DNA of 32,551 bases from Bacteroidota bacterium (GTDB taxonomy: Bacteria > Bacteroidota > Bacteroidia > 2-12-FULL-35-15): assembly GCA_021323165.1 (NCBI GenBank), contig JAJTCJ010000121.1, positions 1-32,551 on the forward strand. The letters are read 5' to 3'. This document shows, piece by piece, positions 1 through 5,106 of this stretch. Numbering within the stretch: position 1 is the stretch's first letter; each line of letters begins with the position of its first letter. The position numbers were made by a program, and so were the translations under genes. Under the pieces are notes generated by a model. That model did not search any database and was not told where the DNA came from. It saw only the letters and a list, made by a program, of their open reading frames with translations.

Positions 1-837
1 AAATTCATTCAAACTAAAATAAATACCAGAAAGTCCAAGCAACGTTTCTCTTCTTTTCGGATCTAATTCATACGCTTTTTCCATGAATGGAAGGGATTCT
101 TTAAAAAGATTGATCGAATTATCCTGAATATCATTTAGCGCAACTATATCAAGATCGTAATCAGATTGATTAATCAGATTTACAGCCTGATTATAATACA
201 AAATTCCCATATTATAATTTGCAAAAATATTATTCGGATCCTGAGCCAAGATCTTGTTATAAGCTTCTTTTGCAAGTTTAAGGAATTCCGTTTTCTTCCG
301 GTCGCCTTCAAATATCTTAGTGTACAAAGATGCGATCGCCAAAGTAAAATCTATGTCTTTTTGTTTAACGGTAGCAGGAGATGGATCTACCAAAAGATAA
401 TATTCCTTAAATCTTTCAAAATTACTGATCGCAATTTTATAATCAATAGAATCAAGACTTGCAGCGGCATCGTTATATAAAGTTGTTGCCAGGTACTTCA
501 CATTTTTAATACACTCCTGAACGTTCTCCTGAGATGAATCAATCGATACAGATTTCTTAAAGGAAGTGAGCGCTTCTAATCGTGAAGGGGATAATTTGTT
601 GCCTTTTTCCTGTTTGTTATAAATGGATTTATAAACAAATCCACGTAAATACCAGGCCTGAGGGTCATTTGATGTTTCAGGATGTTTCACAGCAAAGTCA
701 ATTGAAGCCTTTGCGCTATCCAACTGATCGTTTTTCAAGAACGCATACGCAGCAGAAACCCTGCTTTGCTGGGCTTTTAGCACTACCGCTGTGAGAAGCA
801 GTAATGTAAAACACATTGTTCTTTTTAACTTTAACAT
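1..837 (-). CDS. Secreted TPR-like protein, 3' end beyond the window
   Basis: The frame is open from an ATG at 835-837 through 279 codons to the left edge of the window, so the C-terminus is missing. The first ~23 residues form a signal peptide (MLKLKRT, then a Leu/Val-rich core ending in LKAQ), so the product is exported. A second in-frame ATG at 816 would cut away the positively charged n-region, so 837 is preferred. The rest is helical with TPR-like pairs, for example NYNMGILYYNQA near residue 210 and LLGLSGIYFSLNEF at the cut edge. Such repeats normally mediate protein-protein contacts. It reads the same way as the YfiR-like remnant upstream of it (gap about 27 nt), so the two could be co-transcribed. 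No catalytic domain is visible in the part present, and I cannot assign a specific function. Confidence 0.8.
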   Translation of the reverse strand, partial: MLKLKRTMCFTLLLLTAVVLKAQQSRVSAAYAFLKNDQLDSAKASIDFAVKHPETSNDPQAWYLRGFVYKSIYNKQEKGNKLSPSRLEALTSFKKSVSIDSSQENVQECIKNVKYLATTLYNDAAASLDSIDYKIAISNFERFKEYYLLVDPSPATVKQKDIDFTLAIASLYTKIFEGDRKKTEFLKLAKEAYNKILAQDPNNIFANYNMGILYYNQAVNLINQSDYDLDIVALNDIQDNSINLFKESLPFMEKAYELDPKRRETLLGLSGIYFSLNEF

Positions 838-864
838 CTTAATTATCATGTAAATATATAAAAA

Positions 865-1300
865 TTATTTAACTTGAACAGCCATATCCACAAGTGTGGA
901 TGCAACCTTTAATTTATATTTTTCTATATTCCCTCTATTCAGCTCAATTTTCTGCTTATTTTCTACTACCGAAAAGTTTATGCCATAAAATGTAAATAAT
1001 ATGGCATTGAGAGGCCTCTGCAGAAGAGGAAATATTCTTTATTTCCATCTTTTGAGCTCCAACCATTTTAGAAGTTGCCATTTTATTCAGTTCATTCAGT
1101 AATGGCATATTTGTACCATACACACCAATTACAAAATTCCCATCCTTATATTCTGTTGGCCACTCTATGTATTTAGTAAAATTATAGATATAGATAGCTT
1201 TGATCTTAGCACCAGCTTCTTCTGCCTGATCAAGCTTAATTGCTGCACTTTGGGTGAGCAGTATTAAAGGCAATAATAATATGAAAAGTAGTTTTTTCAT
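865..1300 (-). pseudogene. YfiR-like (DUF4154) periplasmic protein, internal deletion with frameshift
   Basis: The first ~100 codons encode a signal peptide (MKKLLFILLLPLILL...) and the typical YfiR/DUF4154 core: IYIYNFTKYIEWP, then FVIGVYGTNMPLLNEL, then SQCHIIYI. The frame then runs into LWHKLFGSRK and a stop at 956. A different frame picks up immediately at about 984 and reads GINFSVVENKQKIELN, continuing to ...STLVDMAVQVK and a stop at 865-867. That is the C-terminal part of the same family. The roughly 35-40 residues that usually separate these two blocks are absent, so this is an out-of-frame internal deletion with its junction near 984-990. Intact family members are about 170-190 aa and are periplasmic, often linked to sensor or cyclic-di-GMP signalling. 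A TAnnTTTG box lies upstream at 1351-1358. The family call is strong. The size of the loss is inferred from what I know of the family, not measured. Confidence 0.75.
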
Positions 1301-1448: not shown

Positions 1449-2041
1449 ATGCATTCCGTTAAGTTAAATAATCTTGAAGATCTTGAACTTGTTTCTTTGT
1501 ATAAGAATACGGGAGATAAACGGGAGATAAGAATTGTGTCGGAATCTTATTTCAAAGACATACCCATCTTATTTTCGGTGTTTGCATGAAATATCTTAAA
1601 GATGAGGATGATAGTGAAGACGCTTCAATGCTAATCTTCGAGAAACTCCTGACCGATCTCAAAAAATATGAGATCCAGCAATTTAAGGCATGGCTACATA
1701 TGGTTTGTAAAAATTTCTGCCTTATGCAATTGAGATCCGGTAAGACTAAGCTCAAACATCAAAAGGAATTACAGAAAGATTTAGAAGCGAATATGGAAAC
1801 GGACCATGAATTGCATCTATCCATGGCAAGGATGAAAGAAGTGCAGCTATCTCTGATGGAAGACTGTATAAAGGAACTTAATAAAGACCAGAAAATCTGT
1901 ATTGAACTTTTCTATTTACAGGAAAAAAGTTACAGTGAAGTTGCTGAAATGACTAGCTTTTCGATGAATAATGTAAAAAGTTTTATTCAGAATGGGAAAA
2001 GAAATTTAAAAATCTGCATTGAATCTCAGAAGATTCATTAA
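1449..2041 (+). pseudogene. ECF-family RNA polymerase sigma factor, frameshifted by an 11-bp tandem duplication
   Basis: From ATG 1449 the frame encodes MHSVKLNNLEDLELVSLYKNTGDK, a normal N-terminus for a Bacteroidota ECF sigma factor. It then goes out of frame and stops at 1587-1589. Removing one copy of the duplicated 11-mer (1509-1519 or 1520-1530) joins it to TGDKNCVGILFQRHTHLIF and GVCMKYLKDEDDSEDA, giving one 193-aa protein. In that protein region 2 is at residues ~20-90 and a region-4 helix-turn-helix is at residues ~125-185 (LNKDQKICIELFYL, then SYSEVAEMTSFSMNNVKSFI). As it stands, the longest intact piece is 1586-2041 (151 aa). It starts inside region 2 and lacks its N-terminal ~42 residues. 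The ATG at 1586 overlaps the upstream TGA (ATGA), so a truncated product by reinitiation is possible. The next gene, 2 nt downstream, is its presumed anti-sigma partner. Confidence 0.85.
1509..1530 (+). repeat. Exact 11-bp tandem duplication inside the sigma factor gene
   Basis: The unit ACGGGAGATAA occurs twice back to back, at 1509-1519 and 1520-1530. Eleven is not a multiple of three, so the second copy shifts the frame. With one copy the gene is continuous. Confidence 0.97.
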
Positions 2042-2043
2042 AA

Positions 2044-3339
2044 ATGAGTGAGAAACTAAAACATATTATTTATACCAAAGGAGATTGTATCCCGGAGAAA
2101 ACAATGTTTGATTACATTGATAATCTTTTGAGTTCCCGTGAACAACATAATGTCGAAAAGCATTTGATTGATTGTGAATTTTGTTCTGATGCACTGGAAG
2201 GTCTACGACTGGTGAAGAATAGAAATAAAACTTCCAAAATTAATACATCAATAAATAGAAAGCTGGCAGTTCCTGAGAAAAAGAATAAGATTGTTGATAT
2301 TAGGTTTATAATGACGGCAGCAGCTGGCCTGCTTCTATTGATCGGAGGAGTATTCTTCTTCAATCAATTTATCTCGAATTCTAAAGAAAATATCGCTGAG
2401 CTTAAATCTACTGTTACAAAAGAAAGAAAGTCTTCGGAAAGCCTAACTCCTCAGGAGGAGAGTATCACAACCTCAGAAACTGTAGAAACTGCAAATGATA
2501 ATGAAACGGATTTAAAAGAACCTGATAAAAAAACACCTCAAAAAGAGCCGTTAGAAGTAGGATCAAAACTACTTGAAAATAAGAATGAAAAGGGTGAAGG
2601 TTATTTGAGTACCGAAATAGCAGATGAAATATCGGTTTCCGAGGAAGAGAAAAACACGAGCGTCAACAAAGATTCTGACTACAACAATGAGCAAGCAATT
2701 TCGGCAAACCAGAATTCCATCGTTTCCGCTCCGGTCATGGATAAAATTGTTTCTAAAGAATCAAACGTTCGTTTAGATGATACAAAGGCAAATTCTGGGA
2801 AAGCTGAAAATAATGATGGGATTTTAGCCTTTGAAAAACGGTCTGTTAAGGGGGATGAAAAATCCAAAAACAAATATGAAAAAAAGAAAGAGGAGCAAAA
2901 AGAACCTGAACAAAAACCTTCTTCTGCTGCAAACAATACTTCTGATCAGTCTATAGAAACATTAAAGCAAACGAGTGATCTTGAAAGTCAGATGGATTCA
3001 GCTATTACATTTACAGGAACAACAGAAAAAATATTCAGCCAGGTAGATCAGATGCCTGATTTTCCAGGCGGTGAAACCGCATTACAAAAGTATTTTAATG
3101 ATAAGATAAATACGATCGAAAATAAAGATCTTCTAAAAGTAGCTACTCTAAACATTCAATTTATAATTAATTCAAAAGGAAAAGCAATTAACGGAAAACT
3201 TGTTAATCCAAAAAACAAGACAATTGAAATACAAATTATTGACGCAATTAACAACATGCCCCTCTGGACTCCAGCAAAATCAAATGGAGAAGCGGTAAAT
3301 ATTCTTTTTGATCTTCCAATTAAAATCAATATCAGATAA
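2044..3339 (+). CDS. Transmembrane anti-sigma factor with TonB-like C-terminal domain
   Basis: The N-terminus carries an anti-sigma zinc-finger signature, H-x3-C-x2-C, at His40, Cys44 and Cys47 (KHLIDCEFC), which in this family holds an ECF sigma factor inactive in the cytoplasm. One membrane helix follows at about residues 87-110 (IMTAAAGLLLLIGGVFFF). A long charged linker rich in Lys, Glu, Ser and Asn spans about residues 115-330 and would cross the periplasm. The last ~95 residues resemble the TonB C-terminal domain: MPDFPGGETALQKYF, a central NIQFIINSKGKAINGKLV, and an end in NMPLWTPAKSNG. The gene starts 2 nt after the sigma gene, so the two are a pair. The fused layout suggests that an outer-membrane or periplasmic contact controls sigma release. 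The anti-sigma and TonB-like calls come from motifs; the joint function is inference. Confidence 0.85.
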   Translation: MSEKLKHIIYTKGDCIPEKTMFDYIDNLLSSREQHNVEKHLIDCEFCSDALEGLRLVKNRNKTSKINTSINRKLAVPEKKNKIVDIRFIMTAAAGLLLLIGGVFFFNQFISNSKENIAELKSTVTKERKSSESLTPQEESITTSETVETANDNETDLKEPDKKTPQKEPLEVGSKLLENKNEKGEGYLSTEIADEISVSEEEKNTSVNKDSDYNNEQAISANQNSIVSAPVMDKIVSKESNVRLDDTKANSGKAENNDGILAFEKRSVKGDEKSKNKYEKKKEEQKEPEQKPSSAANNTSDQSIETLKQTSDLESQMDSAITFTGTTEKIFSQVDQMPDFPGGETALQKYFNDKINTIENKDLLKVATLNIQFIINSKGKAINGKLVNPKNKTIEIQIIDAINNMPLWTPAKSNGEAVNILFDLPIKINIR

Positions 3340-3404: not shown

Positions 3405-3412
3405 TATTTTTG
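3405..3412 (+). promoter_or_regulatory. Bacteroidota -7 box (TATTTTTG) for the NlpC/P60 gene
   Basis: TATTTTTG lies 15 nt before ATG 3428. The alternative TTG codon at 3410 falls inside this box, which argues for the ATG as the real start. The box would give the NlpC/P60 gene a promoter separate from the sigma/anti-sigma pair. Confidence 0.45.
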
Positions 3413-3427
3413 AGAAAAGCTTTTTGT

Positions 3428-3988
3428 ATGAGCCTCTTAAAAATCAAAATCTGCTTTTTTTATTTATCCTTCAGCTTAACATTTACTTTGTTCTTCACTT
3501 CCTGCAAATCAGGCAGGAATATTACAATTGACAAAAACTCCCAACACAATCATTCAGGCAATTCTAAAAAAATAAGTGAAAAATACGCTCTGCTTTTAGA
3601 TATATCTGAAGATCAAATATCCAATTCGGAGCTATACTTCTTTATCGATGAGTGGTATGGAGTTCCTTATAAGTACGGAGGATGCAACAAAAAAGGAATT
3701 GATTGTTCTAATTTCACAGCTACACTTTATAAGGACATCTACCATAAGTCCGTTTCAGGCTCTTCTTCATCGATATACAAGCAATGTAAAGTAATTTCAA
3801 CAAAAGATCTTAAGGAAGGAGATCTGGTATTTTTCAAAATAGAGAAAAATGAAGTTTCTCACGTAGGCATTTATCTTCACAATAATAAGTTTGTTCATGC
3901 AACTACAAAAAAAGGAGTAATGATCAATGATTTGAATGAAAATTATTACAAAAAATATTTTTTCAAAGCCGGACGCATACTTAATTAA
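3428..3988 (+). CDS. NlpC/P60-family peptidoglycan endopeptidase, lipoprotein
   Basis: This 186-aa protein starts with a lipoprotein signal peptide: a hydrophobic stretch ending in LFFTSC, with the lipidation Cys at residue 26. It should therefore be anchored in the outer or inner membrane. The rest is an NlpC/P60 cysteine peptidase domain. Catalytic Cys93 lies in GIDCSNFTA, His145 in VSHVGIYL, and a third polar residue, His157, in FVHATTKKG. YGVPYKYGGCNKKGIDC is the usual entry to the active site. Such enzymes cut peptide stems of peptidoglycan, commonly between D-Glu and a diamino acid. Starting at TTG 3410 would add six residues but overlaps a promoter box, so ATG 3428 was chosen. The next gene begins 2 nt after the stop, so they are co-transcribed. 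Confidence 0.9.
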   Translation: MSLLKIKICFFYLSFSLTFTLFFTSCKSGRNITIDKNSQHNHSGNSKKISEKYALLLDISEDQISNSELYFFIDEWYGVPYKYGGCNKKGIDCSNFTATLYKDIYHKSVSGSSSSIYKQCKVISTKDLKEGDLVFFKIEKNEVSHVGIYLHNNKFVHATTKKGVMINDLNENYYKKYFFKAGRILN

Positions 3989-3990
3989 AT

Positions 3991-5106
3991 ATGACAAACC
4001 AAAACTCCTGTACTCAGATTCGAATAATTACCCGTTTGACTGCTATTGGTTGTATCATAAGTATGATTCTTTCAACGAAGCTTTGGTTTGGTGAACGAAC
4101 TTTTCCCGAGGTTCCCGCCTTTGAATTCTTAACTTTTTTACAACCGGTCGGAAACATCTTAGCGTGTTTAGCAATTCTACTTTTAATATGTATTTTATTT
4201 ACACGTTTTCCTCAAAAATTTATTATTGGATTTGTTATTACAGCGGGTTTCCTTGCTTTAATGGACATTAACCGTTTTCAACCATGGTTTTATCAATATC
4301 TTTTAATGTTCTTTCTCTTAAGTTCCTTCAATTTCAGATGTGATGATACACGAAAACAACAGGCTTTAGTTACTACATTAAAACTAATGGTTGCAGCCAT
4401 CTATTTTTGGAGCGGATTGCAAAAACTTAATCCTCATTTTTTAACCGATACCTTTCCCTGGCTGATGGAGCCAATCACTAATCATCTTTCCGGGGGCAAT
4501 ATCGGGTATGCATTTCCTTTAATAGAAACATTCACCGGAATTTGTTTATTAATTAATGGTTTACAACGACCGGCTATAATCATAGCCAGTTTAATGCATC
4601 TCTTTATTCTATTTGTATTAAGTCCCTTCGGTCATAATTATAATTATGTTGTTTGGCCATGGAACGTAGTTATGATAGGATTTAATTTTATGCTTTTCTT
4701 TGATGAAACCGCACTAAAATTAATCGACTTCAGAAATACAGTAAGCTATCATGCTCCAAAAATTGTTATCATTCTATTTGTAATGATGCCTTTATTTAAT
4801 TTCTTTAATTCATGGAGTTCATATCTCTCTCACAATTTATATTCGGGAAATACAGATAACGGAGTTATTTGCATCTCAGATTCTGTCAAAACCAGGCTTT
4901 CTTCTAATATTTCGAAATATGCAGTCGCTGACGGACATCAATACCAGATAAATATTAAATACTGGTGTATGCAGGAATTGGGTATTCCGGCCTTCCCTGA
5001 AAGAAAAAATTTCGAGAAGGTTACCGACCTTTTTTATAATTATACAGAAGACCCATCTCAGGTTTTTCTTTATTATACTCCCAAATTAAGATTTAACGAA
5101 AAATAA
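3991..5106 (+). CDS. Polytopic inner-membrane protein, HTTM/DoxX-like
   Basis: The 371-aa product has about eight hydrophobic helices in residues 10-275, followed by a soluble tail of roughly 95 residues. Recognisable pieces are AAIYFWSGLQKLNPHF and SPFGHNYNYVVWPWN. They recall the helical core shared by HTTM (vitamin K-dependent carboxylase-like) and DoxX-like proteins, where a Gly-Leu-x-Lys-Leu motif in a helix is typical. The similarity is from memory of the motifs and is weak, so enzymatic activity should not be assumed. The gene starts 2 nt after the NlpC/P60 lipoprotein and is followed by a strong terminator at 5137-5168, so it ends that transcription unit. The pairing with a wall hydrolase suggests an envelope role. 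Existence of the gene is near certain; function is unknown. Confidence 0.8.
   Translation: MTNQNSCTQIRIITRLTAIGCIISMILSTKLWFGERTFPEVPAFEFLTFLQPVGNILACLAILLLICILFTRFPQKFIIGFVITAGFLALMDINRFQPWFYQYLLMFFLLSSFNFRCDDTRKQQALVTTLKLMVAAIYFWSGLQKLNPHFLTDTFPWLMEPITNHLSGGNIGYAFPLIETFTGICLLINGLQRPAIIIASLMHLFILFVLSPFGHNYNYVVWPWNVVMIGFNFMLFFDETALKLIDFRNTVSYHAPKIVIILFVMMPLFNFFNSWSSYLSHNLYSGNTDNGVICISDSVKTRLSSNISKYAVADGHQYQINIKYWCMQELGIPAFPERKNFEKVTDLFYNYTEDPSQVFLYYTPKLRFNEK

Follow-up and report, generated by a model that had tools for sequence, protein, structure and literature searches.

An exact 11-bp tandem duplication in an ECF sigma factor gene of a Bacteroidota genome points to a probable lineage-specific loss of function

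A gene for an ECF sigma-70 factor in the window (by which we mean the whole analysed stretch of 32,551 nucleotides) contains an exact tandem duplication of 11 bp which is missing from the relatives compared, and we regard a lineage-specific loss of the function of this sigma factor as the likely explanation. The proposed course of events is the following: the duplication, which sits at codon 21 of the gene, shifts the reading frame in such a way that translation stops after 46 amino acids, and the neighbouring YfiR-like gene, as comparison with relatives shows, is broken separately by a 98-bp deletion. Because the neighbour carries this separate lesion, the locus as a whole seems to be decaying in this lineage, its anti-sigma-like partner being still open. 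The preliminary description of this DNA had offered both a simple loss and a reversible switch as interpretations, and it is the simple loss which fits best.

A lone frameshifted sigma gene in a metagenome assembly would be ordinary. What the window would document is the decay of a locus which recurs in the genus and which is made of genes for a TPR-repeat protein, a YfiR-like protein, the ECF sigma factor, a TonB_C-bearing anti-sigma-like protein, an NlpC/P60 peptidase and a membrane protein. As both the sigma gene and the YfiR-like gene are broken in the same genome, the idea can also be raised that their products belong to one pathway.

The duplication and the broken frame

The features of the locus are collected in Table 1. 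The unit ACGGGAGATAA occupies positions 1509-1519 and then 1520-1530, that is 11 bp each time, with zero mismatches between the copies. Read from ATG 1449, the frame ends prematurely at the TGA 1587-1589; residues 1-24 of the resulting product of 46 amino acids are as in P0003, the closest homologue, and the last 22 are out of frame and foreign. The second frame is closed upstream by the TAA read at 1517-1519. The piece encoded there scores above the cutoffs of Sigma70_r2 (35.6 bits, cutoff 24), Sigma70_r4_2 (41.1 bits, cutoff 25.7) and TIGR02937 (82.7 bits, cutoff 42.9), and the partial gene is below the curated cutoff of TIGR02985, the Bacteroidetes sigma-70 subfamily (73.4 against 126.4 bits). 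ECF sigma-70 factors are defined by sigma-70 regions 2 and 4. By these two regions the gene of the window reads as a member of this class, yet as a broken one, because a TGA closes one of its frames and a TAA the other.

Table 1. Coordinates of the features of the locus in the window
Feature	Position	Strand	Remarks
TPR-repeat gene	1..849	-	open to the contig end; neighbour in 14/19 distinct relative loci
YfiR-like DUF4154 gene, C-terminal part	865..984	-	separate frame
YfiR-like DUF4154 gene, N-terminal part	956..1300	-	114-aa ORF, of which 105 native; deletion at ~985
Sigma gene, 5' part	1449..1589	+	ATG to premature TGA, 46 aa
8-bp direct repeat ATAAGAAT	1501-1508 and 1527-1534	+	flanks the array, spacing 26
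Tandem duplication ACGGGAGATAA	1509..1530	+	exact, 2.00 copies; missing from the relatives compared
Sigma gene, remainder in the other frame	1520..2041	+	Sigma70_r2 and Sigma70_r4_2; 173 residues, 94% identical to P0003
Longest ORF with ATG/GTG/TTG start left in the main frame	1586..2041	+	151 aa; without residues 1-42
Anti-sigma-like protein	2044..3339	+	431 aa in one unbroken frame; a hydrophobic stretch separates a zf-HC2 match from a TonB_C match, neither of which reaches its curated cutoff
NlpC/P60 peptidase-like gene	3410..3988	+	neighbour in 16/19 distinct relative loci
Membrane protein (DUF3556 match)	3991..5106	+	neighbour in 15/19 distinct relative loci

The preliminary description had been made from the letters alone, and most of it stands. 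The exact duplication has the coordinates, the sequence and the effect on the frame which had been claimed for it, the two-copy frame does end in a TGA after 46 amino acids, sequence of regions 2 and 4 does lie in the shifted frame, and a frameshifted ECF sigma gene adjoining an anti-sigma-like gene was the right identification. The 193-amino-acid sigma factor which had been predicted for a single copy of the unit agrees with P0003, intact and of that very length.

Frameshift pseudogenes produced by short tandem duplications are a known kind. The window resembles such loss-of-function alleles in having an exactly doubled unit, not a multiple of three in length, within a conserved gene of which relatives have intact copies; it differs from them in that the damage extends to another gene of the locus, and there is otherwise no notable difference.

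The sigma gene in relatives

Among 7,016 homologues P0003 ranks first, with 94% identity and no interruption; both it and P0004 are intact proteins of 193 amino acids. All 13 named relatives were assembled from metagenomes and belong to Bacteroidetes, Bacteroidota or Bacteroidia, and two records are named Chitinophaga pinensis. When the DNA of the 5' part was aligned, 11 columns were found in the window only, against 19 of 19 relatives, a total which is partly due to construction as the relatives had been cut to 141 bases and the window to 152. Independent support comes from the distance between the initial ATG and the aligned Thr/Ser codon downstream of it, which is exactly 60 bases in 18 of the 19 relatives and 71 in the window (the nineteenth relative, L025, has a TTG where the other 18 have the ATG). 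An alignment which was cut differently and which holds 11 of the 19 relatives displays the gap of 11 columns again. On these alignments, the 11 bp read as an insertion relative to the relatives. A chance repeat was ruled out, since the copies sit exactly where the 19 relatives are 11 bases shorter.

The doubled unit of 22 bases was found in one of 36 genomes of the genus, namely the window's own, and in none of the 35 others. It is also absent from the wider collection of genome contigs, in which the window's own genome is possibly not included. Comparison with related genomes had been proposed in the preliminary description, which had allowed for relatives all having two copies together with a working alternative start; what was found is a gene which lacks the additional 11 bases in the 19 relatives aligned and which forms one open frame in 22 of the 22 relative loci examined. 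Five of 24 other genomes of the genus (G008 and G020-G023, which are 75-87% complete) gave distant sigma matches only, and 11 further genomes were covered by the search for the DNA unit only. The sigma gene may be missing from those five as well, and the term "lineage-specific" is limited to the loci examined. Two stops flagged in G005 had made us consider a disruption there, which was rejected as the frame runs over 191 amino acids from stop to stop.

The neighbouring genes

The neighbourhood was compared at 27 loci on 19 distinct contigs, some of them truncated by contig ends. In 19 of the 19 distinct loci the sigma gene is followed by an anti-sigma match (a partial one in L037, L039, L041, L048 and L049); in the window, the zf-HC2 match of this protein reaches 19.3 bits for a cutoff of 22.2. 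Its closest homologue, P0123 (85% identical), has 343 amino acids and begins at the hydrophobic stretch with no N-terminal part, perhaps through truncation or a wrongly assigned start.

The YfiR-like gene is divergent from the sigma gene and is broken by a deletion of 98 bp with a frameshift (865-1300, minus strand). Its N-terminal frame (to ~986) and its C-terminal frame (from 984) are 98 bp closer to each other than in the three relatives that were aligned, and the N-terminal ORF covers only positions 2-73 of the 143 of the DUF4154 profile, so that the whole domain is not in one frame. The gene was found in 15 of 22 relative loci and is open in all 15, with a match which begins at residue 24 in two of them (L040 and L072). 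It is a neighbour in 14 of the 19 distinct loci, lying in several of them (L033, L035 and L038 for instance) ~2 kb from the sigma gene. The nearest YfiR homologue is P0148 (96% identical, 177 amino acids). For both P0003 and P0148 the longest contig given measures 5860 bp and, since these lengths are equal, the two probably share one contig, which would mean that both genes are intact side by side in the nearest relative.

Two other features of the relatives were noticed in passing. The membrane-protein gene of G009 matches as two overlapping pieces in different frames (L029, 7403-7419) and may be frameshifted; the TPR gene of G006 matches in two pieces ~300 bp apart (L038, 10511-10818), a gap which is perhaps an insertion.

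Constraint on the remnants and quality of the assembly

Polarised with P0004, the sigma remnant has 7 amino-acid changes on the branch of the window for 1 on the branch of P0003, with 2 left unassigned. Four of the 7 fall on sites which are at least 93% conserved, as expected for random change when 49% of the sites are of this kind. In the control of 69 branches, such sites received 29 of the 361 changes, and no single branch had 4 (Fisher p = 0.0016); in a wider control they received 39 of 529 changes on 92 branches (p = 0.001). The p-value shifts with the threshold chosen (0.044, 0.007, 0.001, 0.067 and 0.20 at 85, 90, 93, 95 and 97% respectively), and the comparison is drawn from 7 substitutions set against control branches which are not independent of each other. 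A leave-one-out count at sites conserved at 98% gives 1 of 68 for the window, which is unremarkable: 24 of 121 sequences also have 1, and 6 have more. We take the substitutions in the sigma remnant as a weak hint of relaxed constraint and not as a proof of it. Any loss of the sigma gene would have to be young, because no other stop interrupts the rest of the frame and the frame of the anti-sigma-like gene is open.

The pieces of the YfiR-like gene display no relaxation, with 1 change on the window branch in the piece of 105 residues and 0 in the piece of 39 residues. This suggests that the deletion is recent, or that it is a fault of assembly. The latter leads to a reading of the whole locus which we consider unlikely, though it survives better than the others: an assembly or strain-mixing artefact would have created false indels near the left end of the contig, the real gene being intact. 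The window makes up contig C165 in full, and the assembly is fragmented (171 contigs, 4,017,970 bases or 4.02 Mb, 89.61% complete); both frame-breaking indels, ~0.5 kb apart, are less than 1.6 kb from the contig end, and the absence of relaxation in YfiR and the otherwise clean sigma frame are what false indels would leave behind. To our knowledge, however, neither short-read nor long-read assembly typically errs by expanding a short unit exactly, and this counts against an artefact, as do the changes at conserved sites of the sigma remnant, which hint at a genuine loss. Moreover the TPR, anti-sigma-like, NlpC/P60 and membrane-protein genes of the window align unbroken with those of relatives; this comparison reached position 5106, beyond which 15 ORFs were scanned for families only, one of them being without a match. 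We retain the loss of the gene as the preferred reading.

Repeat context and reversibility

The 11-bp duplication is uncommon in its own genome and is not unique there: 3 exact tandem duplications with units of 10-40 bp were counted in 332,421 bp (the window and 16 stretches of the same genome, ~8% of it). When units of 8-40 bp are admitted, these 332,421 bp contain 20, where three shuffled sets contain 15, 12 and 5; the relatives contain 28 in 216,501 bp, where the shuffled sets contain 9, 9 and 9. Low-complexity units were excluded, the shuffles are first-order Markov samples, and the stretches were picked by contig and are thus not random. Since the excess over the shuffles is no greater than in relatives, a genome-wide proneness to tandem duplication was rejected. 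The unit ACGGGAGATAA does not occur elsewhere in the window, even with one mismatch allowed, where 0.39 matches would be expected by chance. The 8-bp direct repeat which surrounds the array may have rendered the site unstable. Imperfect inverted repeats are also seen near ATAAGAAT and the array (1501-1534).

The preliminary description had raised a reversible on/off switch for a sigma/anti-sigma pair; slippage between the two copies would then bring back the one-copy frame in some of the cells. We find this improbable. Known phase-variable simple-sequence tracts have many copies; the window has exactly 2.00, with no base outside 1509-1530 extending the match, and the other genomes of the genus lack the tract. 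What the window has in common with phase variation by simple-sequence repeats is that copy number sets the reading frame, and the rates of such variation depend on repeat number (PMC11868660). A precedent for a switch is that of two-copy tandem duplications which revert in a beta-lactamase gene (PMC4169377). There, 11 duplicated units spanned 9-60 bp, two alleles reverted at rates of 9.3e-7 (TR10) and 3.6e-5 (TR11, unit of 60 bp), and direct repeats were found near duplications even where their position does not explain slippage, with no clear role. Like these duplications, the array of the window is a short coding unit present twice, removable by slippage and with direct repeats nearby, ATAAGAAT in our case. 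The beta-lactamase repeats, however, keep the frame (they are multiples of three), arose under selection, and two of them reverted, whereas for the duplication of the window there is no known revertant and no known selection.

Because two-copy duplications can revert in this manner (PMC4169377), the array of the window, too, might plausibly lose a copy on rare occasions. A switch would also need a route from one copy to two: the flanks do not extend the match, so that the one-copy form would have no matching ends from which to re-create the unit, and slippage on the flanking repeat would yield a step other than 11 bp. Slippage could not reverse the 98-bp deletion of the neighbour either, and the sigma remnant is altered at conserved sites. 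The reversible half of the earlier interpretation is thus not upheld, given two copies only, their presence in a single genome of the genus, the lack of extending bases and a second lesion which is beyond slippage. We consider just as doubtful that the two-copy allele represents OFF in a population toggle with rare one-copy ON cells or, in another form of speculation, that the YfiR-like protein and the sigma factor are functionally coupled, the loss of one making the other dispensable. Among the open-access titles listed, none concerned this locus or a two-copy switch in an ECF sigma gene.

Possible products of the remaining frame

With gene loss as the preferred reading, we may ask what the sequence as it stands could still encode. 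In the main frame, no start codon (ATG, GTG or TTG) remains before ATG 1586, which overlaps the upstream TGA as ATGA. The 42-residue N-terminal part which is missing from this ORF is present in all the 120 homologues listed (of 7,016), with conservation of 93% or more at 14 of the 42 sites, and the score of Sigma70_r2 falls from 35.6 bits when read from 1520 to 22.7 bits when read from ATG 1586, for a cutoff of 24. The sequence as it stands does not yield a full-length sigma factor; at most, a re-start at ATG 1586 would give the fragment of 151 amino acids, probably inactive because part of region 2 is gone, and we infer that no functional sigma factor is produced.

The least probable reading, that the gene still works through re-initiation at ATG 1586 (giving an active sigma factor truncated at its N-terminus) or through a ribosomal frameshift after the first copy, could draw on the ATGA overlap, on an ORF which retains region 4 and most of region 2 with no later stop, and on the open anti-sigma-like gene, but the conserved N-terminal part common to the 120 listed homologues and the region-2 score below the cutoff argue against the former variant, and a scan confined to in-frame slippery heptamers of the X XXY YYZ pattern finds none between 1449 and 1589 that could provide for the latter. 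On the same grounds, programmed frameshifting and an alternative start shared with relatives were both rejected.

Finally, the same genome holds a paralogue of the sigma gene (L002, 1504-2076, minus strand) which is 44% identical and has its own partner gene. A stop flagged in this paralogue (C105) was rejected as a sign of disruption, since its own ORF is intact over 190 amino acids. It could take over some of the functions of the sigma factor.
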